64,000 nt of DNA from Paramacrobiotus metropolitanus (taxonomy: Eukaryota; Tardigrada; Eutardigrada; Parachela; Macrobiotidae). Below are positions 6,813 to 61,004 of this stretch, piece by piece; the first letter of the stretch is position 1, and the number at the start of each line of letters is the position of its first letter. Where the stretch lies: contig NW_026570269.1 in NCBI RefSeq assembly GCF_019649055.1, positions 124,001 through 188,000 on the forward strand, in the 5' to 3' direction. Under the pieces are notes generated by a model that had not been told where the DNA came from, ran no database searches, and saw only the letters and a program-made list of their open reading frames with translations. The position numbers and the translations under genes were made by a program.

Positions 6813-10110
<3,298 letters not shown>

Positions 10111-16900: not shown

Positions 16901-18420
16901 GGCAAGAAGCGGGATGGAAGTAAATTACCCTGTTCGGTCGGGTTAAAACGACGTTAGGGATGTAATTTGAAGTTTAATCGAAAATGTCACAAACTCAATT
17001 AATGTTCGTTGCTCGAATAAAATGGCCCGATAAACTTACTTATAAGGCTGGCGTCAGATGTTACTTTATTTACCTATCATTCCTGGAGAGAGGTTATGAA
17101 CTTACCACAGCCACCCAAATCCGTTCGAAGTTTATAAAACTTATGGTTTAGGCTGGTTAGTACAAGCAGAAGCAAACCGAATGTATGCTACTTATCGTTA
17201 GAATTGAGACACACTATTAATATAATTATGATTATGTCATTATGTCCTCAGCTGTATGAGCAAACGACTTAATATTAGTTAGATTCAACGCCCTGATGCA
17301 CCGCTCGGTTATTTATCTCCTTCTTTAGTCATTTCATGCAGAGTAGCCCATGTTTCGGACGGTAATTATTCTCGGTTTGTGAATGAGTTACTGTACCAAT
17401 CCCATTACTGTAACTGTGCCAATATAACGAGCGATTTCACACAAAAATGTAGTATCTCACCACTATAAATTTATAGTACTACTGAAAATTGATTCGCTTC
17501 GGTAGTAGTTGCATGAACTACTTCGCATTTGTCATTGAGCAAGATTTTTTGTGCAAGACAATGTTTATTTCGAAGCAGGCCGCTATGAAGTGGTAAATCA
17601 TAAATGTGCTGCTAGGAGGGAAATAACTTTATCATGGCGCTGCTTGTTCTGCTTATTCTGTTCTGTTGCTGTAATCTGTGATAAAATCAAAATCTGAAAC
17701 TACTCAACGCTTCGTGCTGAAAATAATAGATTAATTGTGTAAAATACACGAATGATTATAATCATTAGGTGTGTCGAAAAAAATTGCAAAGTATGAGAGC
17801 TTAATATGTACTCGTAGTTGTCATTAGTTGATGTCGTTGCAGGCATCCGAAATTCTGTGCTCTTCTTGTGCAATCAAAATTTTCATGTGTCGGACTGTCC
17901 AGTAAAACTTTTGGTTATACAAGCGCAAGCAACTTACGGTTAAAACTTAGGAGTTACTAGTTAGTGATTTAGGAAGCATAACGTATACACTACCAATAAC
18001 AACCGCTTTTCCGATTCGAGGCTACCAACAGGGTGAACGACTAGTCCGTTGTCGTAGTAGTACAGTACGTAAGTACAGCACTTTTACGTACATCCTGATG
18101 GTGCCACTGGTCGATCGCTTTAAAATGCACCACAATCATCGCTACAAACACCACTTTCCAGCAACCGCATAACACACTGTAACGTTGTCGTGTTCGAGTA
18201 ATGTCACGGCGGCACTTTATTTCTCATGTCGTTTTGACAACTCGGTAAAACCAGCATCCTGCGCCAGTTGATTACAACGAGCCACTACCGTTTACGAAAC
18301 AGTTCTGCAGCCTATCGATTAAAGGTCAAGTGCATACAAGATCTCTGTGTGCACCACTTTTTTCAGACTGCTGCTTGCACGTTTTTTAAAATCTTGTACT
18401 AAAAACGGTGAAATCATAAA
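13964..18420. other. long intergenic region upstream of Rx
   Basis: About 4.5 kb with no recognisable gene. It is AT-rich with scattered short inverted and GTAC-rich words. The minus-strand open frame at 16164-16559 and others lack domains. Given its position before an early developmental homeobox gene, it probably holds Rx regulatory DNA, but no element can be defined by eye. Confidence 0.45.
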
Positions 18421-21400
18421 ATGGCGCTTTCCGTACCGATGAACCTGCCTGGTCAGGGAAACGTTCCTTACTCCATTGACAGTATTTTGGGATTGCGATT
18501 GGCCAAACATGATTTAGTTCCTGCAACCTCCACCGAAGGTGTGTTCGTAGAATCGGCAGACTTGTACTTCTTCAGGAAGTTAATCCACAGTTACTACTTG
18601 AATGTTGAAGAAGCTGAGAAAAATTATTTGTGGCTTAATTTTTAAATATAATACATATACAAAAAATGCTTAAACACTTTCAGCTATCGGGAATTCGAAT
18701 CAACGAAAGAAGCACTGCGTGGATCGCGAAAAGTGCATAGTGGACTCAGATGATGAAAGTTTGTACTCGGATCTCAGTACGAAAGCACAAGAAGCTCCAA
18801 AATTTCCAGGGAAGTCGCGTATTGATTCGGTCTCGTCGCGGCATCCAGCAGCATCACATAAAGCCTCGAAATCCAGTAAAAAACACCGAAGAAACCGGAC
18901 AACGTTCACAACATATCAGTTACACGAACTGGAGCGAGCCTTTGATAAAAGTCATTATCCCGATGTGTATGCCAGGGAAGAACTGGCAAATCGTGTTTGT
19001 CTGCCCGAAGTGCGCGTCCAGGTAACTAGTAAATTATCTTTAAAGCCGAACGAACGTGCATCTGTAACGGTTTTTGTAATTCTGCTAAATCGCTACTTTA
19101 GTAGCGCCAGATTGCTGAAGTTGAGTGGCGTTTTTTAATCTGACAAGTGTCTTAATGATCTCTTATGAAGCTCATAGTGAACGGATGCAGCTTTTACAAC
19201 ATTTAAAAAGCGTCCTATACTGTATTGATGTAATTTGAAAGCAGTGACCAAAATCATACGTGAATTTTTTCCGTGGAAAAATCTTTAATTTTGTTGTTTT
19301 GAATTTGAATTCGGAATTCTCCTACGTACTGCACAAATAGAAGCACAACCGTTCGAGAATGCTGTTGTGATGCTATCTCATGATAATAGGTGTAAACTGT
19401 CTTGTCGATTTTATCGATATGACAGGAAAGTTCGACTAGTCGCGTCGCATTTATGAATTCTGAGCTGATACTACAAAATGCAATTTGTCGCGGCTGCCAC
19501 TGAAAAATATCGGATCATTATCGCTACTTTCCTTTGTATATGTTTCTTCAATCTTGCAACTTCATTTTTATAAAAATTTAGGGTACGTAAATACTTGTAT
19601 ATGAACTGTAAGACATTATATATTTCGTCTTTTAAAACCTACAGTGGAATTAGCTAATAGAGGTAGTCAGAATTTCAGAAACAGGATCGAAGCAGAGGGA
19701 GAGAAGATATAAATTCCATTGTAAACAAAGGTCACTGACATCCAAAATAACGATGGTTTGTCAAATTATTTGTAACTGCCTGCTTAATACTGTCATCCAG
19801 CTCTCACAATGTCTTTATAAATAGTGATTTACAGCAGCCTGAGTACAGCTAATTTAATCATATCTAACAATAGGTAAAGAAAAAACTGCCCGGAGAGCAA
19901 AAAACGGCTTAAGCAATTAATTGGTCACAACAGCCGCATCGAACAAGCACTTAACGCATTAGGGTAAGTGACGCCGGCTACGTCTGTTGAATATTTACAA
20001 AATCCACATACAGCTGAGTTAATCACGCAATGAAAAGGGCCGATAATGACAGGTCAGCACCTGTTATTGCATTGATGGTTGAATTATTAAAGCGACTAAT
20101 CGAATAGTTTACCTATTATCCGTGGCATTTTTGTACCACGTGGAATGATTAGTGGTTGGCGCGCGAGTGCCGGTACAGCATGGGTGACACATATTGTGCC
20201 CGAGTGACATTGATTCGTGTTGATGTTTCAATTATGGCTCGACCAAATGTCGTGATCTCACATGGGCAATACCCAAGCCGTACAGCGTGAAAATGTTCCC
20301 CCACTTAGAGCGCAAAGTTCGTGGGTAATCCACTCAGACAGTGAAGTAGTCAAATTCGTCATAGCTGACTGCGTTTGGATAATTGTGCAATAGCCTATTC
20401 AAAATTTTCACTCATCGTAGCTAATTTAACTCTCGTAACGCCCGTATAAATGTCCTCATATGACGTTTTACACGGAATGATCAGAGGACAAATGCAATTG
20501 CGGGTATGACCTTTGCATGGCATGTCATCATTAGACATTTGCAAGTAGAGAATGAATTAACATTCCAAGGACTTGTTATTTGTCAGTAGTTGTTATACCA
20601 TCGTGCAGTGCTGCTAGAGTACTAAGGTACTTCTTTATGGAAACGTTCGACGACACGAATCGCGTTTCCTTAACTGCTTACTGTACACAAAGTCGCAATA
20701 AAGGACTGGGTCTATGTAAAATTATAATTTTTGTAGTATCGCAAAAGCGTAGAGTTGTTTTATTTTTTTTAAATATGCTAGCTAATAGTCGGAATTTTTA
20801 ACATTTCAATTTCGAGGCTTTCGAACAAATGTAGTTAACTGTTAACCGAACTGGCTGTTAATTTTTATGGCTGGCTGCTGCTTATTGTGTTGATCGCCTA
20901 TCTAAAAATCAAATCAAATGTTCAAAGTAAAAAAGATTATTGTAGCGAACTGTATATTTTTAAATTGCATAAGGTTACAATGCCCGTTCAGGAAGCAAAA
21001 CTCGCTGTTCTTAGTTGTGGTGCTCCCTTATTTTCTGAACCAATACCAGAAAGCGCATAGTAACGGCCAGTACACAGTGCACTCATGGTTTTATTTCTGT
21101 TATCGTCTTAGGTCTGGTTCCAGAACCGTCGTGCAAAATGGCGCCGCCAGGAGAAGCTGGAGTCGCAGCATCTCAAATTCTCTCCCGATTTTCCGATGGG
21201 CTCATTCCGATCATCCCCGGCCAGTGCAGCGGGATTAGCTAACCATCTGCACGATCTCAATGCCGTGGCCAGCGGTATGGTGCCATTTCCTTTCGGCATC
21301 GCACCAGCTAATCCAAGCGATATCGCAGCGCCCTCTGCTGCGTCTAACACCGATGCTGCAACCCTGATGAATGTGGGCTCGGCCCGCAATCCCGTGGCAC

Positions 21401-21558
21401 TGCCGCATCTCAATGCTTTCTTTGCGGCTGGCTTCCCGGCGGGTTTTCCGGGTACAACCAGCTTTAATGAGGGAAGCGATGTTAGTTCCAGCATCCAAGT
21501 GCTGCGACGCAAGGCCAGGGAGCACGTTAACTTCATGTCGAAAGAGATTTTTTTGTGA
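18421..21558 (+). CDS. Rx: Rx/Rax retinal homeobox transcription factor
   Basis: Three exons, 18421-18538, 18684-19021 and 21112-21558, with matching phases, give 300 residues. Exon 1 carries an eh1/octapeptide repressor motif, YSIDSILGL (about residues 17-25), which binds Groucho corepressors. The paired-like homeodomain (about 95-155) reads [20 protein letters not shown], then [21 protein letters not shown] and [17 protein letters not shown], with Gln at position 50. The run [20 protein letters not shown] and the [22 protein letters not shown] end are diagnostic of Rx rather than Vsx, Arx or Otp. An OAR-type motif ([18 protein letters not shown]) lies near the C-terminus. The 2.1-kb intron splits the homeodomain between residues 46 and 47, as in many paired-like genes. 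Rx proteins specify eye and anterior brain. Homeobrain follows on the same strand 3.2 kb downstream. Confidence 0.9.
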
Positions 21559-24500
21559 ACTTTAATAATTATCGTACCGTTCTGTAATACTATTATAAAG
21601 GCAGATGTACAGCAGCACTGCTAATAATATCAAACAGAAATTTACGCACGCACATGGCGTGCGTACCAGGCTAATAATATTATGGATGGATGCAGTAGTG
21701 AAAATAATATCAATTACTATGTGGCAGCTATTGTTAAAGCAGTGCTGTTGTACAATATTTACAAGTTAGATAAACTTATAGACGACTACTGACAATTTGT
21801 CTGTTTATACACAAGCATTACGTATTAAGACGATAGTTCGTGTTTCTTTTTCTCGAATGGCATGTACAGATATTATATCTGATGTACCCAGAGTGAAAAT
21901 TGTAAATCACATACGAGCATATGTAAACGTTCGAACAAGTAAAGTTAAAATATACGAGGGTTGTCCAGAAAGAAATGGCACTTATCAGTAGTCAGTACAA
22001 AAGAAACTCCATAATATTTCGAATTAGTTTTTAAAAAAGTTAAAAGTTGTTAAACTTTTAAATATTTCGAATTAGTTTCTCGAATTAGTTTTTAAATTTA
22101 GTTTTATTCGTACAAGAGAAAGCGACTGTATTTGAAAAAGATATAAAACGAAATGATAAATGATAGGTACTCGTAGTGAAAATCCGCGCACTGTTTCTCA
22201 GCATTCATCATACACAAGGGATCATCTCATCTCACAATTTTACGAAATCAAGTTTCGTGCAAAGGATATGTATGTACCGAAACTGTTACAAAATTACAGC
22301 AAATAAGGAGTATTATTAACGTAAATAAAACCACATAATATCATTCTCGTTCAGCTAAACTGAAATTTCGCACAGGGAATAAAAAAAATCCTTCCTAAAA
22401 ATAATTATACTTTATCGGTAGCACTACAAGAGAAGCCCAAACTCATCTTGAAAGCTAATCCGTCGTAAATTACGTAATTAATAGGTATTTCATTGAGCAT
22501 GTGAAATCGTAAATAAGTACGCAAATACAATAAAGCGTCCTCGCTGCAAAGGCACTATTTGAACTAAACACATTGTAATGAATGTTAATAAATTATTATG
22601 GCCTAAAGGCATTTGACTCCCATTACATACAAGTACAGTACGAATTGCAATCAGCTGCCATTTCTCCAACTGCTGAACATAAAAAGCTGCTGTTTCCCTA
22701 GGGTAGTTAATACTTACGATTAATGCTGTAGTTTTACTCTGCATACTGTATAGTGGAGGTTTAAACATTCTTTACACACAGACAGCACTCATACGAGACA
22801 GAGACGGTTAAATCCTGGATAATCTTGTGTCAAGTATCCTATTCTTCTTAAGCAAAGAACATGCGTGAGCTTTTAATGGATTGGCAAAGAAATGTTTTGT
22901 CAAAAAGAAAAGATGTCAAGTTGATGGCTGAATAATAGATTAACTGACCATATGATTGCCTGTCTTAATTAGCGAGGCGGGGTCACTTTAGCCGTTATAC
23001 CTAGAAACCCGTTTGAAAAGCGAATACACAAAACTTCAACAGATAAATTCAGTACGTTACTTTAATGTACTGTAAGTGTATAAACTCAAGCAGAGAGAGC
23101 CTTGCGAAAAATTGCGAGACGAAAGTGGTGCTTTGCTTTAAAGCTCCCAGTATCCCACAGTGACAGTTTCGATTGCAATATTGAGCATTTTAATCGAAAA
23201 AAAATTGGTTTTGCTGGACAGCAAAACTGGCTTTTATAAATGGCATTAGCTATCCAGTAATCCTACATGCATATTTGCGCAACGGCGGCTATATCAAATA
23301 ATTACAATTAGCGTTCAATACGCTCCACTAGGCAAAATGCATATCAGGCCGGAAGTAAATAGACCCAAAGCAAATTAGAACTGCTCACGCAATGCGCACT
23401 GTACAAAGTAAATGTCCATTGGGAAGGGTCGCAGCCGTGCAACATGATCCAGTGGTCGTCTGTGAGCCGAGTCAGGCGCAGACTCTATTAGACCGGATAA
23501 TGGACTGGAGTGGATTAGCACACTTCAGTAATTAACAGTTGAACGGGTGCTAATGAGCCTAATCAACTACTCAATTAGCCTGGCCCTGACCCCAGCCAGC
23601 CACTAAATCCACTTAGACCCGACGCTGCTCTCACAATTCATTTGCCGGACTAATTTTCTTGTTGGGACTTCTTGTGTTTCACGGCGGATTTGCCTTCGGT
23701 ACACAATGACAGACTACGCCCAGTTCGTTTTAACAGCGAGATTCGAATAACACAGTAGAAAATGACGCGGGACTTATGCTTTGTTCACGTTGTTGCAACG
23801 TGATACAGAAAGAAAATATGACAAGGCAGTGTAATAAATAAATGGCGTTCAGTCTTTTGCCTTCTGTGCTTCTGTGCGCATTCTTGGGCTTGAATTTCGT
23901 TTTAGCAAAATTGTGCAGGAATTTAAAGTTGTTATCATTAAAGATTAATCAACCAAGAGAAACTTCCTGTGTTTGATGCCGAAGTTGATTAGTGCTGGTA
24001 TTTTGGCCCTGCTGGAACTAAATTAAATGTCGTCGTGGAAAAAGTGCAATATTAGCTGAATCGAGAATTAAATCGCTTTGCGCAGAGTACAATCAAAACA
24101 ACAGCATTTCTGCAGTAGCGCGCAGAAACTATTGTTTTCGTCTTTTACGGTTACATAGTCGGTTACTGCAGAATGCAGGTTGTGGTTTTCACACTCAAGC
24201 TTGCCAGTATATAAATTTGCCAGTATATACAGATAGATGGTTGTTGATTTCCGAAACAACGAGGCTGAGCAAATGGGTTGAATGCTGTACGTAGTACTGT
24301 ACTTGTACATACCGTACTTAATATTTATATAGACATTTTGCATTTTCATATAATATAGAGCTCTTCTGATTGGTTTATGCCAGACACGAATGTCATACTA
24401 CAGCAGAGTACTCCCGCCCTTTTCTCTCCACCCCATTCACCCGTCGGATCAGCCGCTGACCACTGTGTTGCCACTGCATGCTTGTTGACCTGAACGACTG

Positions 24501-24770
24501 CACCAGTTATCCAGTCGTTTAATTGACGATGACACTTGTTTGTCTGGCGTTGGTTGCACAGTAGTGGCTGATCAGTGCGAGTAATTGAAACTGACAAGTG
24601 GCTAATACAACATTGGGCTTCTCCTCGTGGCAAGCCGTTTCATTTTAACCTGCTGGCGAACAATCTTTTTTGTTGCAATTATTTTTGACAGCTGCTGATT
24701 ACATTTATTTGTTTGATTATTAGCGTTGTGCTGGCCAACAGTAGCAGTTGTCTATCTGGTTCCAGTCGCA
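21559..24770. other. Rx-hbn intergenic region
   Basis: About 3.2 kb with no gene. It contains diverged direct repeats of ATTTCGAATTAGTTT near 22015-22090. A patch at about 23460-23660 has several ATTA/TAAT homeodomain core sites within higher-GC sequence, so it is a candidate shared regulatory block for the two homeobox genes. Confidence 0.45.
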
Positions 24771-27700
24771 ATGGAGAAATGCGTTAAAAACTCTGGTGCG
24801 TTGTATTACAGTATTGCTAACATGTTGGATAACAGTGGACCGGAATCGGGAAAAACTAAAGGGCAGAAGAGCGCCGACAACGACAGTGGCGCACAACGTT
24901 GTACGAGCAACTGCAGGAAGATAGGTAAGTGTGAAACATCGCATTTTTTCGTACCTGTAATGTTAATAACTTGTCCAAAAGTTTATATGTTATGCTAGCC
25001 TAATATAATTTTTTTGTTGCGGCCATGAACAGATGACAAGTCACTGCCATCGGATAGCATCATCCACGGCAACATAGACGATGTCATGGAACTGGATGGC
25101 GACGATGGCGAGAAGTCCATCTCGGATGAGGTCAACTCGATTGATGAGCACAAAAACCGCGGAGGACGAAAGATTCGCCGCAGTCGTACCACCTTCACAA
25201 CATATCAATTGCATCAGCTGGAACGGGCGTTCGAGCGCACTCAGTATCCGGATGTGTTTACACGGGAGGAACTGGCCCTTCGACTGGATCTCAGCGAAGC
25301 ACGCGTTCAGGTAATGCAAAGGAAACATTAAGCAATAACACTATACGTATGGTACCCTAAAAACTTTAATAAATTTGATCAAATGAATAAGCACTATTAT
25401 TAAACAGACGTGCACCACATTTGGTAAAATAAAGGACATTGAATCGGAATTCGGAAGTACGCATCGAACAGAAGTTTACTTTTTTCGTGATCGCGTTGTG
25501 CCGTAATCTGTAACTTAAATGCTTACGTTATTAAAATGGCAATCAGGAGTACAAAAAATTTCGTAATCAGCTCTAATGCACTGCGGTTCTATAAAGAGCT
25601 TCTTAAATATTGAATTGTCCGACGAAATCTATGAGTATGTTGTTTTTGACAAAATTAACAAGGGCAAACGATTTGAAAAAGAGCGGTTTGCTATCGTTTC
25701 AGTTTGCACGAAATATGCTTCTGCTGGGTTGGGTTAGAAATTCTAAATCTTTAATAGTTGAGGATTAAAATCCATCTTGTCCAGCGCTAAAAGATTAGAT
25801 GTGACAGTGCAGCCTAAACGTGCAAATTAGCCCATTGAGCAGTCCAAACAGCCTCCCGCATCGTTCGCAGCGCCGCACCGGCGCGTCAGGCCGAACGGGA
25901 AAAATCTGTCCTTTTTCTGTCAGCATGCGTACGCTGGACATGGTATACAGTTCCTGTCTCTCTCACAAGCAGAATCGCGCGTCTGACCCCGTAGTGCAAT
26001 TAGGCCGCTCTGTCCGCAGCAACGGGTCAATTAAGTACCCGTTTTGCATGTTAATCACAGATAGGCCATCGGATTTAATTAGCTGCACAGCTGAATGGAC
26101 ATAACGATATCCTTGTAATCCCATCAATTAGCCCTTCGTTATTAATTATCCGATATTCATCTGTTATGGCAGCATAATTGGGCCGCGGTCCACTTGGGAT
26201 CGGGAAGAGGGCACCACTTGACAATTAGACAATATCCCGACAATCGGCATTTCCACTTAGTGCAGGACGCAAACGTGCGCAGTGCGCGCTTGTATTCAAG
26301 TGGAAAGATGTTCGGGCGTTTTTAATGAAAAAATTATTCATAATGGTCACGGTTAATGGCGGGAATCATTTCTCTCTTGTGGGAAAGTTCATCAGCGTAA
26401 ATTATCCTTAATCATATATTTTATCACAACCGTCCTTAGAAGGGACGTTCTCTAGAAAACAGAAGAATAAGCTAAGCTTGCAGTTTTTGACTAACTGGTA
26501 AGACTGCTGTCAGACTGGCCATATATGCTTATGCCATATGGTACTGCATTGGTTCTCTGGGTTAGTTGTATACTTGATTTGCATTTTGCAGTCTGAAACT
26601 GTGAATTTTTTAAATTATGCCATACGGCTAGTCCTGCCTTGGCAGTCGGCAGTATTACTGGCAACTTTTTTTAAAAAAAATCCATAGTCAGCTGCCAGTA
26701 CGATATAATATGAAAGTGTTTGAAAATTTGGGAAGTACAAAAACATGTGTCTCCCTGGGTGCATGAAGCCCAGTTCCATGCTTTGCACAAAGTTAGCGGA
26801 CATTAATTTTCTCGCGATTTGTTCAATAAAATCGACGCTAACCCAATTGAAAAGTTGGCAAGCGAGTTAATTGAACGGTTTAGGCAAGCGGGCGCATTTG
26901 GCCGTATAATGCACGAGTACTGTATTGTACGTCCCATGTGCCATATATAGGAAAATAATCATCCAATAAAATAAGCAATCAATTAAGCATGATATTGGCC
27001 CGGCATCGAACAAATAAAGTGCCAATTTCCGGTTTTTGCCTATTCAACCACAAGAAAATTGCCGTGGACGAATATTATCACGTTAATATAGACCGTTTGT
27101 GTGCTGCCAGTGGATTATTATATTATTAACCACAGAGATTAACCCAACAGCAAATCAGTCTTTTATTGTCCAATCCGGACATAACACCCGTGCATTTGAT
27201 TATTTACCACGGCCTCTTTTTTGTCTCTACGACACAAAGTGTGCTGCCGCATTTGATACGAGAAGTGCGCTCTGTGTAAATTTGATTTATTAAGCCGTTT
27301 TCATCGGGCATACATTATTTACAGCTGATGCGTACAACAGCCAAAATGCCGGCTTGGTCGTACAATGCCAGTGCACAGCCACCAATAATCTCTTGTTATG
27401 ACAATTTTTCGATCAATAGACAGACGAGAGAATAATGTCTCATGTTACACAAACTGAAAAGTGCCGCAGGTGCAAATCTGTCCAACTTTTCTGCGGCATC
27501 AAACATTGCGCTGACGTTTAATAAGCTGCGCTCAGTGAATGTCCCTAAAGGCGTCCTTTGTTACGGAACAAAATATCTGAACTGATCACTTACGCCGAAT
27601 ACAAAACGGAACAAGATATTGCCGGTTATACGCATGATATTGCTTTGTGCTAGCAGTTAGAAATTAGTTTAGTATCTGCAAAGGTAATAATTATGTCCAT

Positions 27701-28335
27701 GGTCAGTGTGCAGTAACCACCCGAGATTAGCTAACTGTAAGAAAAAGACAAGTTGTTGGTAGGTAAAAGCAACTTGTAAGAAACACAAGATAAGCAACCA
27801 GATTTTTTTCCAGCAATAAATATTGATTTCTAATCGATAGGTGTGGTTCCAAAATCGTAGAGCCAAATATCGCAAGCGGGAAAAAACAGTTACAGACATT
27901 CCACCCGGCGCTTTGGCCCCGCTCTTCCACCCCGGCCTTCCCCTTCCGGCCAACACCGCCAACCTTCCGCCGGACTACGCTTTGGCCAATCGTCCTCATG
28001 ATCTCTTTCCTTTCGCACATAAATTTCCAATGGGTGCACCCTTTGCCCCTCATCCCTTCCTTCCGGCCTTCCCCACCACTGAGGCCATGATGAAGAGCCA
28101 CCCATTTTTCGGAATGTTCTTCCCGGGGACCCTTCACCGAACGCCACTGCCACCACCCGGAACACTCCTTAACAAGGCGCCGGATGCTACGGGAGCGGAT
28201 GCGTTGAAAGTGCACAGTCTGGATGTGCTGCGTAGCAAAGCCAAGGAGCACAGCGCCAGCCTGGGCAGTGGGAAGGTGCATCGGCCGCGGCCGCAGACCG
28301 GCACACCAACTCTTAAATCAGAAGCCTATGCATGA
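24771..28335 (+). CDS. hbn: homeobrain paired-like homeobox transcription factor
   Basis: Three exons, 24771-24924, 25033-25310 and 27841-28335, with all phases consistent, give 308 residues. The N-terminus has a weak eh1-like YYSIANML and an acidic stretch ([20 protein letters not shown]). The homeodomain (about 95-155) reads [20 protein letters not shown], then [26 protein letters not shown] and [44 protein letters not shown] and LDLSEARVQ match homeobrain more closely than Arx/aristaless, which typically has RYRTTFTSYQLEELE. Position 50 is Gln. Residue 56 is Tyr where most relatives have Trp. The C-terminus is Pro/Phe/Ala-rich with an OAR motif ([15 protein letters not shown]). The homeodomain intron (2.5 kb) is at the same codon boundary as in Rx, supporting tandem origin. 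The known role is anterior brain patterning. AATAAA lies at 28421. Confidence 0.85.
25990..26235. promoter_or_regulatory. homeodomain core-site cluster in hbn intron 2
   Basis: Within about 250 bases of relatively GC-rich intron there are at least six AATTA-type cores: CAATTAG near 25997, 26125 and 26223, TCAATTAAG near 26028, TTAATTAG near 26075 and ATTAATTA near 26141. The density suggests an intronic enhancer bound by homeodomain proteins; no conservation test was possible. Confidence 0.35.
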
Positions 28336-28813
28336 TGCATCTAGACCGATTGTTTCAAGAGGAGTTTTAAGAATCTTAGATCTTTACGTAAAATGCAGTA
28401 AAACTGCACACGCATATACCAATAAAGTGACTTCTGTGTGTATACTATAATAATACCTTTGTGTTGTTTGTCCTCATTGTCAGAGCAATTTTTACTCGTA
28501 TTAAGGTTCGAGCATTAGACTTTTACCAGTTGACGATATTATAGTGTATCTATCATTACTTACGTATCAGCAGATTTATGCACTCCATATGGATGTCTTT
28601 CAAACTAAACGAGTTTTGCAATAAAGTAAAACATACGCGACGGATGGCTGCGATCATTGCAGTAGTGATTCCCTAGTTATCTTATATGACTACAAACAAC
28701 AAAAACTAATCGAATCAGTTTGGTCATTACACTAACCATCCGCCGGAAACGTTAACTTTATTGTATCAGTAAAATCGTTGAGCCCATAGAGAGCCCACAT
28801 GGCGTATGTCTTA
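28336..28813. other. 3' region of hbn
   Basis: Contains the hbn 3' UTR with a poly(A) hexamer at 28421-28426. Nothing else was seen before the MITE. Confidence 0.5.
28421..28426 (+). promoter_or_regulatory. candidate poly(A) signal of hbn
   Basis: AATAAA 86 bases after the hbn stop codon. Confidence 0.5.
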
Positions 28814-29524
28814 CCAGGGAACATAGGCATCCTCCAAATTCAGAAAATTTTCATTTTTTGTAAAAAGGTATTATACTATTGTAGTATGTCTAAAAAAATA
28901 TTTTCATCTGCCACCGTCAAGGGGGCGTGGCCAGATAACAATTAAAAATTTGCATACTATCACATACTGTGCAAAGTCAGTCAAGTGTTATTCGTAATTA
29001 TTATTATGTTAGCTTTTTACTGCAGCACCGTGGACTTTCACAGCTGTCGAGCAGGGATGTAAAAAAGGCCCACTTGCGGGGGCTCGTGCCGTTGCTGCCT
29101 TAGAGCATATTTTCGAAAATTTTTTATCGAATAGTGTTTTAAACAAAAAGCTGTGCGAAAAAAAGCTGTTTTCTACTTATAAGCAAATACGTGCTGTACT
29201 TCATAATCAGTTTTCGGAAGTGTGCACTCGCAGCAATGACAGGAGCCGCCGCAAGTGGGCCTCTTTCACATCACTACTCGACAGCTGCAAAAGTCCACGG
29301 TGATGCAGTAAAAACTTAACATAATAATAATTGCGATTTACTATTAACTTGTATTGCACTCCATTACACAGTATGGGATAGTATGTGAACTTTTAATTGT
29401 TATCTGGCTACGCCCCCTTGACGATGGCAGGTGAAAATATTTTTTTAAGCACACTACAATAGTATACTACCTTTTTGCAAAAAATGAAAATTTTCTGAAT
29501 TTGGAGGATGCCTATGTTCCCTGG
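28814..29524. mobile_element. 711-bp foldback MITE with TTA target duplication
   Basis: The two halves are long inverted repeats of one another, about 300 bp per arm. The left end CCAGGGAACATAGGCATCCT matches the reverse complement of the right end exactly for more than 40 bases, and the arms continue with scattered mismatches up to a 100-150 bp centre around 29110-29245. Both ends are flanked by TTA (28811-28813 and 29525-29527), a 3-bp duplication typical of PIF/Harbinger elements and Tourist-type MITEs. It encodes no transposase. The short open frame at 29501-29713 starts inside its right arm and is not a gene. Confidence 0.88.
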
Positions 29525-33957: not shown

Positions 33958-35263
33958 CCTTCCGTCGCGTACATTCAACGGTTATCCCACTGATTTTCAG
34001 TGTGTTCACCGCGAACAACCATATTACCTGCTTTCAGAAAGGCCGATTTTGGATTTTAGTAAGGAGTTTTTACTGGGATTAATGTCTAGCTAGTGGAGTG
34101 TAGGACCGACCGAGCTCTGCCCGTACGTTAAACCAGTGAACTACAGTGCATAAGTGCATCATTGTTTTATAAAATGGGTTGTTGGCTCAAAACCGTATAC
34201 CGCGGAACCGGGCTCAACTTTTGCAGTGCCCGCCTAGCTTGGAGTGTTCATTTGGGAAAACCGAGCCGACAATCAGCAGCTGAAATTTAAAAAGTTGGCT
34301 ATTTTTTTGTTTTCGGATTAGAAATGCACCCTATACATATTAGAAAGTCAAAAAGCAGTAAAGGCAAAATGTGTGATAACTGCGCGTTCCTGTGCATTTT
34401 CCATAAGTTTTGCTTCGCTGTTCTTGTACAGTTGTACACTTGTTCTGTACTTACCTCAGTGCACCGTATGTACGTTAAAACTTGAAAATGCCCAAACCTA
34501 TTCAGTGCTCAAACTCAACTATCCATGCATAAGAAAGATTATCAAAAAGATTGAAAGCGACTGGAAAACATACAGAATTAGATTTTTAAAAACAAATACA
34601 GATACTCTTCAAAGTTCAAGGTACATGTATACTAGCTGTGTTTATGAGAGATATAACACGAGTATTTACAGCTACGAAGCAAAAGACCTACCGTAAGTTT
34701 CTAACTAAAACGCCACCTAGTGGTGGTTGCGTTATAGACAAACACTGGCATATGGTTTCCGCCACATCTGTGGTTCGTTAAAAGAATTGCTTTTGCTTCC
34801 TATTTTGGCGAAGTGACTTAAGTAAAGGCAGCGCGAAACTGCTGTGACGTCACGTTATAGAAAGTCAAAACTTCAAGATACAGGTTCGCGCATAAAAACA
34901 ACAAATTTTTCTGTTGCATTCTCTTTGCAAGCTTTGAAATCGCAGACGTTGATGTAATCACTAATGAACGTTATTTTACTGGACTTTTGTAGCTTGGACG
35001 TGTAATTTCTAGAACGATGCACATGCATGACTAATAAGAGCAAGCTAAATTGCTCTAATCGTTAGTGCGCTCATCTTGGGATCTTTGCGTGGTACGCTCG
35101 CTCGTTCCTGTTTGCAGTTTGAACGTTTTCAAATTGTGACTACGTAACACGTTTGATTAAAAGGACCAGCCTACACGTCCTGAGTCGACATTATTATCTG
35201 CGACGTGCATGGATTATCTTCTGATCGCTGTCAGTATTGGGATTTGTGTTCTCCAATATTGAA
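33958..35263. other. intergenic, promoter side of unc-45
   Basis: About 1.3 kb between the tetraspan gene and unc-45. No gene was recognised. Confidence 0.5.
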
Positions 35264-38200
35264 ATGGCTAACGGTGAACAGCCGCAGGACGCTAACACAG
35301 TAAAGGAGGCTGGGAATGCTGCTTTTAAAGCAGGCCAGTTCCAGGAGGCTCTGCGCCTGTACAGCTCCGCCTTTTCGCTCACCAGCAGCGATCAGCCCAA
35401 GGAACGATTGGCGATATTGAAAAATGAAGCTGCGTGTTACCTGAAACTACAGGACTATGACAACTGTGTCAAAGTAACTACTCAGGGTAAGCAAGGTACC
35501 TTGAGATTCGCACATAACGATTCACTTGTTGCGCTTTTTAAGTGGTTCTTTTCCGAAGGAATTCGTAAAAGTTGTTATGCTGTTCGTTTATGAGTGTGAA
35601 AAATAACGGGGAATCTTAATGGTTAAGGGTTTGACTCCGAAATCAATATAGAATTTGTGACAGGAGATTGTTTGAATCCTGACGGTTCAGGAAGTTACTT
35701 GATTTATTATTCTGGTGGCGGTGGATGAATTTTTATTTCTTTAATACGTGTAGCCCTGGATCTGAGTCCTAACGATCCCAAAGCGATGTTCAGACGTTGT
35801 CAGGCTCTGGAAGCACTGAACCGCATCGACGAAGCATACAAAGATGCTTTGCTTGTGGCTCATGCAGAACCAAAAGATGGGAATGTGCAGGAAACGGTGA
35901 TGAGACTGCACAGAACGCTGCAAGAACTGGTAAGAGCATAATTTACTGCTTCGCCGTTCGGTTCCAGCAACAGCAGTTGTAAGTAAAAGATGTATGCATT
36001 TTCACGATAATTTGAATATTGACTAAATGGCCTTTTTTGCTCCGTAAAACAGTGTGTTTTTCACTTTATTAGAAAACACAGGTTCGAGATAGCAATTTCA
36101 ATTTTTGCGCTTGATTTAAAAGTAATTTCGGGTTTTTCTGTATTATTTCGGTAATCATCTGATCGAGCGTTCACTGCTTTTTGTTGACTTTCTTCTGTTG
36201 GCCCCATGTAGAGCAAAAAGCAAGCTAGCACGGAGCAGCGCGTCACTGAAATGATGAAAATGTTCGGACCAGATGTGAAGGATGTGGAGAAGCGTCGTCA
36301 GGCAGCGAGCAATCTGATTGTGTTGGCGCGGGACAAGGCCGGAGCCGAAAAGCTCATGGAACGCAAGATTCCCGAGCAGTTTGTAAAGTTCCTGAAAGAT
36401 CCGTCGTTGGATAAAGAAGTCCGACTGTCGCTCGTTCGTGCACTGGGAGAGCTCTTCAAGGGCGATGTTACCAGGGTAAGAAATTACTGTTTTATCAGTG
36501 CTGTCATTTTTCTTTTACATGACATTCACGGATCGCAGTATAAATAACGGTGCTTAATCAGTTGTACTTTATTATTGTAGTGTCGTGAACTTCTGAGAAA
36601 GCGCATTGGTTTGCCACCGCTGTTGAATCTTTACAGCGTTGATAATGATGAGGTTGTTACCGCCGTTAGTGTAGCAGTAGAGAATGTCATACGAACCTTA
36701 TCAGGCTGGATTGACAAGGAAAAACCTGATCGCAAAATGATCCAAGGTTCGTAGTCATCCTTGATTGACCATTCTTGCTATCACGATTCATATTTTATAG
36801 TATATAGATATTAGTATCCTTTATAATAAAAGAATAAGAAGGTGCACAAAAATCGTGTCTGTCTCCCTTTTCTGGGCGACACGGTAAGCGAAACTTAGGT
36901 CTCTGTATATCATTCGATAACGCAAGGCGTGTAGATGAGCCCCAAAAAGTCAGTTTTATGAAAACCAAGCTATAACTGCCACCTCGAGTGCGAGAGGCTG
37001 TGCAAATGCAAACAATGCATTCGCTTACTTATTTCGCTATCAGGTTCGTTAGCACACCACAGTTCACAGCAGCCATTACCGTTATGACTCTGTAGTGATA
37101 GCCCTGAATCGGTAAATTTTCTAAAAAGTCATTTTCATATAGCAAATGAAGTTTAAAAAAGGCGATTTTGAAAGACTCCACAGTCAACTTGCTATCCCAT
37201 TACGAATGGCTCAAAACTCCATCGGCCTCCCAAAGTGGTTTGGTTCTGGCAGCTTTTAATAATCACTCGCAGGGTTACGGTGCCGTATTTTGCCAATTAC
37301 TAATAATTATTAGGATATCGATTTGTGTCCAATTAGTTCAAAATTTGTGCAAGGCCTTCCAAAGGGGACGCTGTTTTGTGGGGGGGGGGTGGGGTTTAAA
37401 GGGGTTGGGGATAGTATAAATTTGTTAAATTTGTCTGCTCCTTCAGAGCTTTAAATTCATGGCGAAACAAAGGATAACGGTATTTCGGGAATTCTGTCAT
37501 TGGGGGGACACACATTTGCAAAACACGGTTATAGTTAGGTAATTGGTCAGTGGGAATTAGTCGGTCAGCCATCTTGGAAAAATTTTACATTGGATTTTTT
37601 TTATTATTAAGCGTGGGCAACAGCGGCGGTCGAATACTGGAATCAGATTGTTATTACGGACAGTTTTGGAGTTCAAAATGGGGAAAATAGAGTCTGTATC
37701 TGTAGTAACAGTGAGCCGGGCGCGTGATCTACCGGCTCACAAGTCAAAAACACGGAAAAGTCGCAGTGGTAGCGAAAAATTTCGCTCCGAGCGCAATGCT
37801 TGGGCGAACGGCCCCTCCTGCTGTACAAAAATTTGAAAAGGAAAGGGTTGACCTAATTATTATATTGTTATAACTGTCATGAAAAATGTTGTGGCTTTTA
37901 ACGATTTTTATGAAAATTATCTATGAAATTTAAAATTCCATTAAGAACTGTATACCAGTGCCGAGTACGTAACCTTTGCGGAAATTAAACGACTGAATTT
38001 TGTTATAAATTCCAACGCTTTGGTCGAACATTCAAAAAGCTTGACGTAGAAACACGCCAATTTTGATTCTATTTTTTCGAATATTTTTTATATATGATTT
38101 CCTAACAAAAACAAAAGAAAACACGGGAAGTTGGACAATGACAGCTTTCGGCAGTGATTGTGGTAAAACAGTACTGTAGCGGGGCGCCCGCGCCGATCAG

Positions 38201-41200
38201 GAAAATGCGGCCGGCAATCGGGAGTGGCAGACGGGGTATCTTTGAATTTGTTTATGTAATATTCATTTACTGTATGTAGAACTAATAAGATGCACATGGA
38301 AACGGCAAATTTTGAGGGCAAACTTTCAAATTTCTATGCTTAACGTTATTCCGCACTCAGAGCCAACGAATCAACGAGACTTTAACCATTGAAACATTTG
38401 CCAATGCAAAAAAATTAAATTGCGCTAGGTTTAGCTCATTAAAATTACCTTTGCAATCGTTATTTTATAGTTTTGCGTTTAGTGATGAAAAGGTAATAAT
38501 CCTTCGCGGAGCTATTCCGCGCAATTTTGCGCGGGGTCTGCTAGTATTAGTATATTTTCATGGCATGTTTGTTCCATATTAGACCGTGCCAAAAAAGTTA
38601 GTTTGAAAAATTGAAGCCCCCTCCGAAATACAAGCCCATGCCCGTAATTGGAGCCCACCCCGTGAGGCGTTTGAAATATTTGTAACCCTGGGGCTCTAAT
38701 TCGATAATTACGGTAATCGATTATGTTTAATGTTGTTAATGAATATTGTAACTTTTTTTGAAGAAAACCAAGATGATATCGACCACACAATGGAATCGCT
38801 GGTCAGTCTCTCCGACCGTGCCGTTTTGTCGGCGGTGGGTCGTGATGCCGTTATTGATCTGATTTTGAAGAATATCCAGGAAAATCTGTCCCCCGGATTA
38901 GGCTGGACGTACCAGTTCATGGAACGCGACGGTATACAGAAATTTCTTAATGTCGCCGTGTATCAGCCAGGTGGAAGTGATTCCGATCTGCTGGTTACCA
39001 ATGAAACCCGCGTGCATATTGCCTTGGCGCTGCAGAAGATCTACGATGATTTGGATAGCGATAAGAAGCGGAATATTTTTAAAGAGAAATGCGAGCAGTT
39101 TGTCAGTTTACGACTAAACGATGCCGATCCCAAGGCGAAAATCCGGGCTGTACTAGCAGTTACGGCTCTTTTGCAAGGTATGGTAAAGATCTGTACTTGT
39201 GCCTTCCTTTAACTTGCTACATACCAGATCAAGTATTTATGTTATGGGAGTATGTATTTTTGTTAGAATTATACGAGTAAATTATTAATACACCGATGGC
39301 TGATTTTACAGGGCCTTTTGATGTGGGAAATTTCCTTTTGGGAACTAAAGGAATTCTGGAGTTACTGCTGGCCATGGCCAGTTCTGACGATGCTAATCAA
39401 CAGCTGGTAGCCGCGGAAGCTATGGTTCATGCCGCATCCAAAAAAGATAAATGTGCAGCCATTTTGGGGGATGGATTGCCACTGCTTAAGAAACTTGCTC
39501 AGTCACCTAACGACAATGTTCAGGTATGATGAAATTTGCCGGGCATAATTATTAACATATTTCCAGTTTCTGCTTTGAGCGGATTTTCTGTAAATAGTAA
39601 CAAAGTTCGCAGTATTGATGCTTTATTGACACTTATCAGTAATGTCATTGCGGTATTTAACACTATTAAAGTGTTTAAGTTAAGGTTTGAATCTACAGAT
39701 TAATACTTTTTTTCCGATGATTTTGCAGTCATAGCGTAGTGTAGTGACTGAAACCTTGATTGCCCATGCGAACTTGTACCGTCTAGCTATAGAAGTACTG
39801 CAGACGCTTAACAGTGATATGAGCTTTTTATAAATTTCAAATTTTTAAGATTTTTCTCAAATTTCATTGTATGGTTGTGGGTATAGAATCATTAGAATTC
39901 ACTTACGCAGGTGCGTGCTCTGGTTGGTTTATGCAAAGTGGGATCTTCTGGTGGTATCGACGCATCTAATCGCCCCTTGTCCAAAGAAATGATGGAAAAG
40001 TTGGCCGACGCTTGTCGAAAGTTCTTATTGAATGCCAGTAAGGATTTCGATCTGCGCCGATGGGCGGCAGAGGGATTAGCCTATCTGACGCTGGACGCCG
40101 ATGTTAAAGAATCTTTAATTGCCGACCGACCAGCGCTGCGAAGCCTGATTGATTTGGGCCGAACAGGAAATCAGAACGTCATCTACGGTGTAGTGTCTGT
40201 GTTTGCTAATTTGTGCAATGCCTACGAAAAACCAGAAGTCGTCCCGGAAATGAAGGAGCTGGCAAAGTTTGCTAAACAACACGTCCCCGTGGAACATCAA
40301 AAAGTAAACAGCAGCAAATCCTTATATTGTTGATACGTGATGGCAGATTAGGCTGGCTGTAGGTCTTTGGTGTTTCTATGATGATAAATCAAGTGCCAGT
40401 TCGAAACATTTTTGTTTGTGGTGTTTATCGTCGTATTTAAAGCAAAATAAAAATAATTTATATTTTCAAGCATTTATATTCTTGTGTTTTTACTTTTTAC
40501 AGGATTCGCCCGAATTTATTGCACAGCGAATCGCGGTGCTCGTTGATGAGGGTATCGGAAGCTCCTTGGTTGCTGTCAGCAAGTCAGAATCGAAAAACAT
40601 CCGGGAATTAATATCTCGGGTGTTCAACGGCATCGTGGAGAATAAAGATCATCGTGGCATGATGGTGCAACAGGGGGCTGCCAAAGTGCTGATCAAGCTA
40701 GCGTTGGATGGCACACCGGCCGGGAAGGAGCAGGCATCGCAAGCATTGGCCCGGATCGGCATCAGCATCAATCCAGAGATTGCCTTTCCCGGCCAGAGGT
40801 CCGCGGAAGTGGTGCGACCGTTGTTGAATTTATTGGATGTGGATAAAGGAGCATTGCAGAATTTTGAGGGATTGTTAGCGTTGACCAATCTGGCACAGCT
40901 TAGCGAGAGTGTTCGGTAAGTGCAACTCTAGAGGTTAATTCCTTCCGCGTGTTGTTAGTTACTGTAATCAGAACAGTCTTAATGAAGTCTGCCTGGTGCA
41001 TTTGTTTTTTTATTTGTTGATAATTGACCGTTGCTTATTGATTCCACTCGATTGATTGAAATAACATGCTGAGTGGTGAAATTGTGAAGAGCAGCGAATG
41101 TCATTGTCCAACCAGTTACTATTTTGTTACAGTGTTAATAAATATTTTGGTAATTTGTGCAGTGAATTTGTAAAATAATCGTTGCTGTGTAATTACAGGC

Positions 41201-45826: not shown

Positions 45827-45968
45827 TCGTTAACGCAGAGCTCTCGTAGTACTTAGCAACGAGACACGCATAAATCGGAGAGGGGTTCGATGTGTACCGC
45901 AAGTGCTCAGTACTTATTCATCGTAAAAACAACTGAACACTCAGACTTCGTAAAAATTTCGCGCAAGA

Positions 45969-46627
45969 ATGCGGCTTTTCTACATGGAAGGCAACATTGG
46001 CTCTGGAAAAACAACTCTTTTAAACCAGTTACTGAAACTGGGAGAGCGCGTGGTCTTTGAACCCGTTGAGCAGTGGCAAAATGCGAATGGGCGTAACCTT
46101 CTGAATGAATTTTATTTGAACCCCGCCCATGCTGGAGCGGATTTCCAGCGTGTTGCACTGCAGTCCTTGATCGAGAGAGAAAATTTATACAGTACTATCA
46201 TCAATACGGGAAAAACCACACATAACCGGATTTTCCTAGAGCGATCCCCATACAGTTCCGCCTGTATTTCGCTCGGATGGGATTCCGTGCAGGCTGGCTG
46301 CCTCAATCAGCGTTCGAGGAACTGCAGCGCACATACCGGCATTATGAGCGAACACGATCCCCGTCTGAACATCATATTCTTTACGTCCGGACAATGCCAG
46401 AAAACGCACTTGCCCGAATTCGTTCCCGTGGCTGTCCGGAGAAGACAAAAATTACGCAACAGTATATAGAGGATCTACACCACAACCACGAGCTTCTGTT
46501 TTTCTCACAGAAACCCCCCGGAATAGTTTCCGTTCACATGGTCAACAACGACGGCGATGTTGAACTACTTGCCGATACTGTGCAGAAGATCGTGGCGAAG
46601 CTAGCACCGTCAATGATAACCTCCTAA
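45969..46627 (+). CDS. dnk: deoxynucleoside kinase (dNK/TK2/dCK family), one frame break
   Basis: This intronless frame starts MRLFYMEGNIGSGKTTLL, the family P-loop GNIGSGKTT. EPVEQWQN (substrate-binding Glu and Trp), LERSPYSS (ERS motif) and the C-terminal LID-type RIRSRGCPEKTK followed by YIEDLHHNHE are all present. Enzymes of this family phosphorylate deoxynucleosides for salvage of dNTPs. The frame shifts at about 46259-46263: upstream ends SPYSS, and homology resumes as LYFARMGFRAGWLPQSAFEE one base off, consistent with loss of one C (GCCTG for GCCCTG). The corrected length is about 219 residues, compared with about 250 for insect dNK, because the C-terminal tail is short. No mitochondrial presequence is seen. 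Being intronless among intron-rich neighbours, it may be an old retrocopy. It lies between two tetraspan paralogs. Confidence 0.82.
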
Positions 46628-57500: not shown

Positions 57501-60391
57501 TTCCAAGTTTCACTTCGAAGGCAAGACTCGAGCGTATATCGTATACCGTTTGTGGCCGTTAAAAGTGCGACTACTCTGATTTCTCGACGATATGCTTGCG
57601 GTACAGTGTCCCACCGTATCGTATACCGGACCGTATATCGTAGCGGTGTGGCGACTACAATCTAATGACACAGACCGGTTGACGGCGTTGCAGTGTCCGC
57701 ACCCCATAAATTTGGGCGGCTCGAATGGTGCATCCGGATGGCGGACCAACAGTTTTAACGTGATTGTCTGCCCAATCACACCGGCCTGCTGCAGACGCCG
57801 TCGTACTTCCTGACCAAGCTCCTGCAGGAACTTTTCCATTTCATCGACGGTTTTCATACGAATTCCGTAGTTAACGTCGGCAGAAACCGACTTTCGAAGC
57901 AGTTTATTCTGGACTTCTCGATCGTCCATCCCTGCACAAAAACTATGATTTACTACTTTGTAGTGTTCCTACGTGGAAATACAAACACGCCAGTCATATC
58001 AGACTTACGCAAATCTAATTACGAAGACCTTTACAAAAATTTCAGAGCTTCATTCAGATTTTTTTTCTAAACAGTTGCTGTTTCACCAATTTGATACTTC
58101 CGCTGCTACTTTGTATATACTTAACAACCTTATGGAGTATTAAATAAACACTATCTATTAAACCACTATTATAGCAGGTTATTGTTTCCACAAGCCATGC
58201 AAATTTGGATCACACCTATACTCAAATTTCCACGCAGCGCTTTACGACCAGTATTATTACCACTGTAATATCTGGAATAAACTGAGCTTTTCATTGAATA
58301 AAGATGTTGTTAATCATCAAGCTCTGCGCCCGTGCTTGCATTTTTTCTACTGCAGTCCGATGATGAGTCTCGCTGTGTACCTCGTGCAAAATTGTAGAAT
58401 TTCTGCCCATTCTTTTTTCCAAATTCTTTTTGAAGCACATTCAAGCTGACTTTTCTTAGATCCCCACAAGTTTTCAGTTGCAAAGTTTGGAATTTCTCCG
58501 ATGCACTATAGCCGACACCTGGAAGATCGTCCACAGGAAAGTCGGCCATGAAAGCAGTAATTTCTTCGTCGGGAACATAACGGTGACCATTCGGTTTGGC
58601 CTTTTTCGTGGCTAAACGCGCGATTAACTGATTAGCCCCCAGTCCAGCCGATGCGTGGCAACCTGTTTAATAAGTACACGTATAAATAACTAACGCAAAT
58701 GCAATTATTCGCTCCCCTCCCGCGCTCACCAAATTGGATCTTTAATTTTTTAAATACAACAACAACAAAGCAAAACCGTTTTTCCATATACGAGTACTGC
58801 ACTATGCAAAGGACCAAACTCACCGGTTTTTTCGTAAATTCCTGAGCGCACAAAAGCAGCGAATTCCCCGGCGTTGCTTTAGTCTCCCGCAAAATATCCG
58901 TACAATTAACGATCATTTCATCACAGCTAACTGCTTCGATATCCAGTGTAAAACTGGCCATAATTTGGTAAAAGACGGTGGATATCGCTTTATACCTTTC
59001 GAACTCATACGGTATCGTCGCCAAATTTGGACACAGCTGCTTGGCCTTTCCAAGGTACATCCCATTCTTCAAACCCGCCTTTCTTGCTTCATAATTACAA
59101 GAAGACACCTCTGAACGGGAGTTGAACTCCTCATCGCCTTCGGACACCTTCCCGTGGCCGGTGCGGGCATGACAAACTGCAACAGGTTGACCGACCAGGT
59201 GCGGACGCGAAATAAGCCCGGCGGAGACGAAAAAACAGTCAAAGTCGATGTGCATGATAACCGTCGGGCAATCAACGGATTCACGGAAGCAGTACATTTC
59301 TCGCAGGCGCTGGCGACCGGAAAACGTTCGGTCGGAAGCTTGTTGGAGGCTGCGGACTAGCTCTTTAGATTCGGTCTTCCACATGGAGAGGTGGTGCAGA
59401 CGCGAACGGGCATAAAACTGCTGCAGATAATTCGCATCACCGGCTTTGTGAGCAACTGTTTCCTTTCTGGGATTTGCAACAATACTTCCAGGGACATCAT
59501 CAGTGCGGTTGCAAGTTTCCAAAGGTTCTGAAATACAAAAGATCATTTATTCGAATTTCTGAAATTCGTAATAATTTCAACAGGCAACAGTCATCTGAGT
59601 AACAAAAATTGGAGGCGTGGACACAAAGGATCCGTTATTTTAACGATTAACGTTCAAATACTGAAAATTACTTAATTTAAACTTCCAAATTAAAATTCAG
59701 GATAAAACAGCGTGGACCATTTACTACCGCCATGTAACAACGAATTTTTGATAATAAATCTTTAGGATTAATTTTACGAAATTACATTTAATCGAAATCT
59801 CAAACCTCTTGACAGAATCCGGAGAGTAGCAGCAGACTTACTTTTGGCACTTTCATCCTTTCGTGCATCCGCTTTCCCGCTGTTGGAAGCGCGCAGAGGA
59901 TCTGTTTTGGGGTACAGCTCAAAATCCTCCCACGGCAGCAGTCTGCCTTCCCTTACACTCGCCACAATCCACTCGGGTTTAACAACCTTTTCGTCGCGCA
60001 GCTGCCTGATTTTGGTAAACGGCAGATTAGTGGCCACAAGGTGTGTGGTGTTGGTACTCTGATACAAATGGAAGGTGCCTCCATGCAGCATCATAAGGCG
60101 CTTTAACTCGTCGGAGGGGGGACTGGTGATACCGTTAACAGCAATGGCGACTCCCTTGAAGATTTCACTAGCACCTTGCATTTGCGCGGCTGCCTTCGCG
60201 TAGTGCGCATCTCCGTGAAACTGATCCAGCAACTTGCGCTTCTTGGCAGCCATATAATCACTAAAATTCCCCCATCGATCATCCTCTTCGAAATCATCCT
60301 TCGCTCGTTTAGCGGGGGCATGGTTAGGTGCGAGATTGAAAATGTCGAAAAGACGCGGAGTTGCAGACGCCTTATCAGGCTGCTTGTTCAT
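54581..60391 (-). CDS. REV1: REV1 translesion DNA polymerase
   Basis: Minus-strand exons: 60391-59842, 59527-58824, 58662-58381, 57931 to about 57666, about 56926-56675, 56521-55543 and 55249-54581; about 1233 residues after correction. REV1 is the Y-family deoxycytidyl transferase that scaffolds translesion synthesis. Visible domains, in order, are an N-terminal BRCT (FKGVAIAVNGITSPPSDELK, then HLVATNL and KPEWIVASV), the palm with HIDFDCFFVSAG and catalytic AVSCDEM, SCNYEARKAGLKNGM, the finger/thumb (FPVDDLPGVG), the PAD (SADVNYGIR), a ubiquitin-binding UBM (VLTSLPEDILDEIL) and the C-terminal polymerase-binding domain. The frame breaks twice. Near 58827-58832 an A6 run needs seven A to splice in phase (KKTGCHASAGLG). 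Near 55788-55800 one extra base is present. A TIR element separates exons 4 and 5 within the PAD. The ATG at 60391 is used because the upstream in-frame codon is GTG. Confidence 0.93.
56928..57663. mobile_element. TIR element splitting REV1 exons 4 and 5
   Basis: AGATTGTAGTCGC at 56928-56940 is the exact inverse of GCGACTACAATCT at 57651-57663, and TA flanks the pair on both sides. Inside each end are further subterminal copies of TATACGGT and ATCGTACCGT-type words in both orientations. The 736-bp element contains no transposase frame. It fills nearly all of the intron between exons 4 and 5 of REV1. Removing it at the TA dinucleotides would leave VSLLIQASDSADVV in frame, or VSLIQASDS if the whole TTA...CTA block is removed. 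The obvious GT...CAG splice leaves a frameshift. The element class is uncertain (TA-flanked Tc1/mariner-like MITE or hAT-like). Confidence 0.7.
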
Positions 60392-61004
60392 GATCACGGG
60401 ATTCACAGCACGTTAAGTACTGAAGTGCCCGTTCGTCCAAGTCTCTCACATTTTGTATTTCTCAGCCTTTAAAAATTTAAACTTTAAACACATCAGGATG
60501 ACACACATCTAGAAAAAATTTATAAATATTTTGCACTAAAATATAAAAAACATTCGATTTAAACCAGATTTAAACCAGAAATAGAGTTTACTTTTTAAAA
60601 TTAAAACTTCACAAAATATGGAAACCTTTGACGAAAAGTCGAAAACTGGTATACTGTATCTGTACCGTGGTCCGTAACACAACTCGAAAAAGTGGAAAAA
60701 CCAAAACATTGCCGTTGCGTCGTTGCATTTTCATGTTTGTACGCGAACTGATAACATTTGTGACTGCCGTCTCAGGGGACTGCTATTGCTGCTTTGATCG
60801 GGCGGCTGCTTCACTGTAGCTGGTCTGGTTTCGGTTTGTGTTTTGCACTTTGCAGGAGCAGTTTTGGACAAAGAAACCTTGCGGTTAATTATGGTTCGAA
60901 ATTAGGGACTTCTGCGGTCCCCGAATTTTCTGATTCAATAATTTTCTGTGAGACAATAGCTCAAAGATTGTACGTAGTTACATGGTTGTGCGGTCTGCTT
61001 CCAA
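60392..61004. promoter_or_regulatory. divergent promoter region of REV1 and F-box gene
   Basis: About 610 bases separate the two divergent start codons. No TATA box stands out. The spacing fits a shared bidirectional promoter, but this is positional inference only. Confidence 0.35.

Follow-up and report, generated by a model that had tools for sequence, protein, structure and literature searches.

In the tardigrade Paramacrobiotus metropolitanus, a stretch of 64,000 nucleotides (the window; contig NW_026570269.1, here C49, positions 124001-188000) carries two intact paired-type homeobox genes, Rx at 18421-21558 and homeobrain (hbn) at 24771-28335, both on the plus strand. Positions are those of the window unless a contig label precedes them; C49 has 1,043,520 bases in a genome of 169,799,020 bases and 533 contigs. 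A genome-wide homeodomain search places two matches inside the window, at 18887-19024 and 25176-25313, both plus. As predicted from the DNA sequence alone, Rx has three exons encoding 300 amino acids and hbn three exons encoding 308, both frames are closed by a stop codon, and all four introns have GT...AG ends. A preliminary description of the stretch had put the two genes on the same strand 3.2 kb apart; coordinates, strand and spacing are borne out, with 3,212 bp from the Rx stop to the hbn ATG. The features of the locus are as follows.

Rx exon 1, 18421-18538, plus strand: start codon and octapeptide/eh1-like motif YSIDSILGL; GT donor at 18539
Rx exon 2, 18684-19021, plus strand: linker and homeodomain residues 1-46; match C49:142887-143024, 54.7 bits
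Rx exon 3, 21112-21558, plus strand: homeodomain residues 47-60, C-terminal region, OAR-like tail (by eye), stop
Rx-hbn gap, 21559-24770, no strand: no Rfam match, open reading frames without Pfam match, single-copy; candidate shared regulatory region
homeobrain exon 1, 24771-24924, plus strand: start codon and weak octapeptide-like stretch (by eye)
homeobrain exon 2, 25033-25310, plus strand: acidic linker and homeodomain residues 1-46; match C49:149176-149313, 57 bits
homeobrain exon 3, 27841-28335, plus strand: homeodomain residues 47-60 (Tyr at 56), proline-rich region, OAR-like tail (by eye), stop

The two genes are closely linked and no gene lies between them. The gap has no Rfam match (region 17400-29000, gathering thresholds). 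Eight open reading frames of at least 75 amino acids touch it, one of which is hbn exon 1, and the other seven have no Pfam match at 0.001.

Each homeodomain is split by an intron between residues 46 and 47. The same exit point is found in 11 of 12 other paired-class (PRD) exons of the genome (L019, L022, L027, L028, L033, L035, L036, L038, L044, L045 and L070; the exception is L052), the 12 being those with a YPD motif plus L045, with orthopedia (otp) and the divergent insert-bearing homeodomains set aside. OAR-like tails are visible by eye in both proteins. The intron position described earlier is thus present but does not mark genes of a homeobrain-Rx-orthopedia (HRO) cluster; intron and OAR tail are general PRD-class traits. 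The Rx motif YSIDSILGL, also read by eye, is what we take to be the octapeptide/eh1 motif; the corresponding stretch near the hbn start is weaker.

Identity of Rx and homeobrain

All homeodomain reference sequences used here were entered by hand. The Rx homeodomain has identical residues at 55 of 60 positions with fly Rx and likewise with human RAX; the closest family outside Rx reaches 45 of 60. The hbn homeodomain is identical to fly hbn at 54 of 60 positions, followed by ARX at 49 of 60. Two trees were built, each with 13 PRD rows from this genome and the window pair; a Pitx-like fragment (L070) and the divergent insert-bearing homeodomains were left out. One tree, of 39 rows, included two ANTP-class outgroups and gapped otp rows, and the other, of 37 rows, had the outgroups removed and complete otp homeodomains.

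The 37-row tree unites the window Rx with Rx_Dm, RAX_Hs and RAX2_Hs (100/99) and the window hbn with hbn_Dm, the single hbn reference (100/98), and recovers the otp group at 100/100. Forcing Rx together with Arx/al is rejected (p-AU 0.002), and forcing hbn together with Arx/al/L052 weakly so (p-AU 0.043). The names first given to the two genes are thus upheld by this tree, each homeodomain falling inside its own clade. Val43 and Arg18-Ala19 are given as Rx-family traits in a study of the HRO cluster (PMC2938728), and the window Rx carries both. A separate al/Arx-like gene, L052, lies on contig C18 and groups with al_Dm in the 39-row tree (78/93) without a resolved place in the 37-row tree; because it exists separately, the window hbn is probably not the Arx of this genome. 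A PDB search with the Rx homeodomain returned 50 distinct sequences at E<=1e-10, none of them named Rx or homeobrain, the matches belonging to related families (ALX4, aristaless, DUX4, PAX and others).

From their orthology, Rx and hbn would be PRD-class transcription factors of the embryonic head and anterior brain programme. The octapeptide/eh1-like motif of Rx would be expected to recruit Groucho-type co-repressors. At the end of its recognition helix the hbn homeodomain has Tyr at position 56 (RRAKYRKRE), where the fly hbn, Rx and Arx reference sequences have Trp.

Orthopedia and Islet on other contigs

The genome-wide search yielded 92 homeodomain matches, two of them the window pair, and the letters of 85 were read; five weak matches (C90:48637, C11:1592982, C17:48610, C16:60193 and C16:46825) were left out. 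Two of the 92 are otp homeodomains, one at C11:760692 on the plus strand (otpA) and one at C1:1197229 on the minus strand (otpB). A fly Otp homeodomain, entered by hand and used as query, finds the first homeodomain exon of both, at 86% and 82% identity, and the last homeodomain part at C11:763740 with a 90% match. In the 9.9 kb read at each locus, otpA lies at C11:760.7-764.5 kb and comprises the first homeodomain part, a middle exon of 15 residues, the third part and an OAR tail; otpB has the same parts on the minus strand of C1 near 1.197 Mb. For otpA, the tail is also recognised by the Pfam OAR model.

We considered whether otpA and otpB are two haplotypes of one locus and rejected this, as the two 9.9-kb pieces share a single blastn match of 117 bp at 81%. 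By tblastx they match nowhere but in the homeodomain and tail parts, and otpA is followed on its 3' side by a CAP_C gene to which nothing corresponding was found in the 9.9-kb piece of otpB. Since little is shared outside the coding pieces and the surroundings, as far as read, differ, we regard them as two genes. Neither piece is similar to the window by blastn at 1e-5.

At the sensitivity of these searches, otp is absent from the window and from all 1,043,520 bases of C49, where the otp query picks up Rx and hbn and nothing else; these are cross-matches within the PRD class. The homeodomains of C49 are Rx, hbn and one non-PRD homeodomain at 958635. The contig reaches 142 kb to the left of Rx and about 891 kb to the right of hbn, and each otp copy is at least 760 kb away from the ends of its own contig, so that even with C49 abutting C11 or C1 a distance of about 0.9 Mb or more would separate otp from Rx. 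The absence of otp from the window, noted at the outset, therefore holds for the whole contig. Of the explanations then offered, that otp had moved away is the one that stands, with the addition of its duplication on C11 and C1; loss is excluded, as is a position just beyond the left edge, given the 142 kb to the left of Rx.

Isl, which often accompanies HRO and is its usual fourth gene (PMC10726417), is likewise not found beside Rx and hbn: its likely homologue lies on another contig, at C2:788146, with 41 of 48 positions identical to ISL1.

Ancestry and retention of the pair

The HRO cluster groups homeobox genes of the PRD class and has been followed back to the common ancestor of cnidarians and bilaterians; its authors describe it as the first non-ANTP homeobox cluster to be reported (PMC2938728). 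Such clusters have been published from a cnidarian, insects and a limpet (PMC2938728) and from spiders (PMC10726417). In Nematostella vectensis as in Drosophila, Apis and Tribolium, hbn and Rx are adjacent and have the intron at homeodomain position 46/47, as here (PMC2938728). The Nematostella genes also have three exons each, and the hbn-rx gap of 3,437 nt between stop codons compares with the 3,212 bp from stop to ATG found here (PMC2938728). Two differences stand out: hbn and Rx lie on opposite strands in fly, bee, beetle, limpet and Nematostella and on the same strand here, and otp is inside the Nematostella and insect clusters and outside here (PMC2938728).

The arrangement closest to ours in these respects is that of the sea urchin Strongylocentrotus purpuratus, in which hbn and rx are linked on the same strand with otp on a different scaffold (PMC2938728). 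Its gap of about 22 kb is wider than the 3.2 kb found here, and one otp locus is mentioned in the available text, whereas otp is duplicated in the tardigrade (PMC2938728). Spiders, a scorpion and a tick have clusters of the same gene families, extended by Isl, with variable order and orientation; they retain otp, and their Isl is described as consistently linked (PMC10726417). In P. metropolitanus neither otp nor the Isl-like gene shares a contig with the pair. Another panarthropod with a broken HRO cluster is the sea spider P. litorale, in which Hbn, Otp and Rax occupy three different pseudochromosomes and the link that survives is that of Rax with Isl (PMC12220506); in the tardigrade the surviving link is that between Rx and hbn.

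Taken with the positions of otp on C11 and C1 and of the Isl-like gene on C2, these comparisons lead us to conclude that the Rx-hbn pair is very probably the surviving homeobrain-Rx half of the ancient HRO (plus Isl) cluster in a tardigrade. The proposal that hbn, Rx and otp form an ancient linkage group, of which this pair is a part, fits the published HRO data. The likeliest history would be that the two genes were retained side by side from the ancestral cluster, that one of them was inverted relative to insects and Nematostella, where they are on opposite strands, and that otp left the cluster and was duplicated, its copies now being on C11 and C1, with the Isl-like gene also apart on C2. 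What is new is the tardigrade lineage; the linkage arrangement itself was already known and the mechanism is unsurprising. Our literature search, which covered few subscription papers, found no report of a tardigrade HRO cluster. In the available text of PMC10726417 the single mention of tardigrades concerns NK genes, that of a tardigrade brain-gene study (PMC6065069) does not contain 'rax', 'retinal homeobox' or 'homeobrain', and that of a study of NK genes (PMC13088399) does not contain 'HRO'.

Several points weigh against this conclusion. Retention since the ancestor is judged from one tardigrade genome. The trees are shallow, with 60 columns and hand-entered references, and the 39-row tree left the Rx group without resolution and placed hbn at 89/91. 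At the level of domain models, the OAR tails of Rx and hbn are not among the three genome-wide Pfam OAR matches (10 candidates scored), and that of otpB, also OAR-like, likewise goes unreported by the model. Nor is close linkage as such peculiar to this pair, because a Pitx-like and a Dmbx-like exon, both of the PRD class, lie about as close together on C119.

A further point concerns the gap, where an enrichment of TAAT-type sites had been considered as a sign of shared regulation. Against 200 first-order Markov controls the gap appears rich in such sites: TAATTA occurs 6 times (2.5 expected; reached in 7 controls), the dimer TAATNN(N)ATTA 4 times (0.3 expected; reached in none) and the TAAT core 78 times (52 expected; reached in 1), with TAATTG/CAATTA less raised (reached in 42). 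An excess of dimer sites is also present 5' of Rx (0 of 200 controls). Among 304 overlapping tiles of the window, however, those overlapping the gap included, the gap count is reached by 27 tiles for the dimer, 45 for TAATTA and 4 for the core, and the AT content of the gap is 0.617 against 0.583 in the median tile. Because these counts are unexceptional beside other tiles of the window, we dropped the signal as evidence, and the idea of a shared enhancer gains no real support from it.

As to why the pair has stayed together, regulatory DNA that both genes use, lying in the 3.2-kb gap and in the large homeodomain introns, may hold it, or the short distance between the genes may suffice. The second possibility, in which 3.2 kb is merely a short target for breakpoints and no regulation is shared, has in our judgement slightly less than an even chance. 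It agrees with the ordinary site counts in the gap and with the lack of any conserved element shown there, and with otp and the Isl-like gene lying apart, the genes themselves not having been lost. It is harder to reconcile with the wide dispersal of Hox genes in other tardigrades (PMC5531438) and with the five Hox-like homeodomains on five contigs here, which indicate that gene separation has been common. A stronger version of shared regulation, which we put forward tentatively and consider rather unlikely, is that the tardigrade Rx and hbn form an indivisible regulatory block, within about 10 kb, in which each gene depends on DNA in or beside the other. Genes freed of such sharing (otp, Isl and Hox) would then have scattered, and duplication away may have been what released otp.

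It is very improbable that the cluster broke earlier and that Rx and hbn were reunited by chance. Tardigrade gene order is much rearranged, and the shared strand differs from that of fly, bee, beetle, limpet and Nematostella, as secondary relinking would allow; but the strand is accounted for by a local inversion of either gene, cnidarians, insects, molluscs, spiders and a sea urchin all have these two genes linked, and a simple uniform model gives a chance of about 7.4e-5 for one named pair to fall within 6.3 kb in a genome of 169.8 Mb. A misjoin between Rx and hbn, conceivable in a draft long-read assembly, has a negligible probability, as the window contains no N and the gap sequence has a single match in the genome, to itself, so that no gap or repeat suggests one, and many other animals also have Rx and hbn as neighbours.

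Among panarthropods, tardigrades are a key lineage whose Hox genes are scattered, and a surviving 10-kb Rx-hbn unit beside a dispersed, duplicated otp and a separate Isl-like gene would show which part of the cluster resists break-up. The retained unit may thus serve as a small natural case for testing why part of HRO resists break-up, and be useful for the history of the cluster.

Neighbouring genes and other homeodomains

The Pfam scan of the window covered 150 of its 173 open reading frames of at least 75 amino acids, and 40 window frames were also scanned by name. To the left of the pair lies a class I/II aminotransferase (8219-10107). To the right are a TPR plus UNC45-central gene, UNC45-like (35225-39209), a deoxynucleoside kinase (45954-46466), a set of IMS, HhH and BRCT domains on the minus strand that is REV1-like (57513-60412) and an F-box open reading frame (61828-62973), all by Pfam.

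Elsewhere in the genome, the C119 pair consists of a Pitx-like exon at 293599 on the plus strand (L070, named by eye) and a Dmbx-like exon at 300241 on the minus strand (L044, named by the 37-row tree), 6.6 kb apart on opposite strands. The Hox-like homeodomains occur one per contig, on C172, C157, C108, C43 and C73 (L017, L009, L061, L064 and L025), and are presumably lab-like, Hox3-like, Dfd/ftz-like (two) and AbdB-like. No Antp-, Ubx-, abdA-, Scr- or pb-like homeodomain was recognised by eye among the 85 matches read. The five fit the reduced Hox set described for tardigrades (PMC5531438).

Linkage is also seen among NK-type homeodomains. On C26, Msx-like and bagpipe/NK3-like homeodomains lie 18 kb apart, at 1156054 and 1173856 (L008 and L011), and on C225 two BarH-like homeodomains lie near an HMX-like one, at 80055, 98737 and 116141 (L004, L006 and L015); these names are provisional.

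Finally, the search uncovered a divergent homeodomain family with at least 11 matches at E<=1e-6 (rows L020, L024, L037, L039, L040, L046, L048, L063, L066 and L067); in most of them additional residues precede helix 3 (for example ...DIIDAGEDDKRIQVWFKNRRSK).

Divergent homeodomains: C3:3052235, C17:1243205, C488:2114, C488:10017, C78:285597, C8:2145, C8:2420, C8:7373, C416:18127, C244:19814, C54:332940

Their open frames are 121-292 amino acids long, and two near the start of C8 are only 275 bp apart. Its appearance suggests that the family is either a lineage-specific expansion or a gene of a mobile element.

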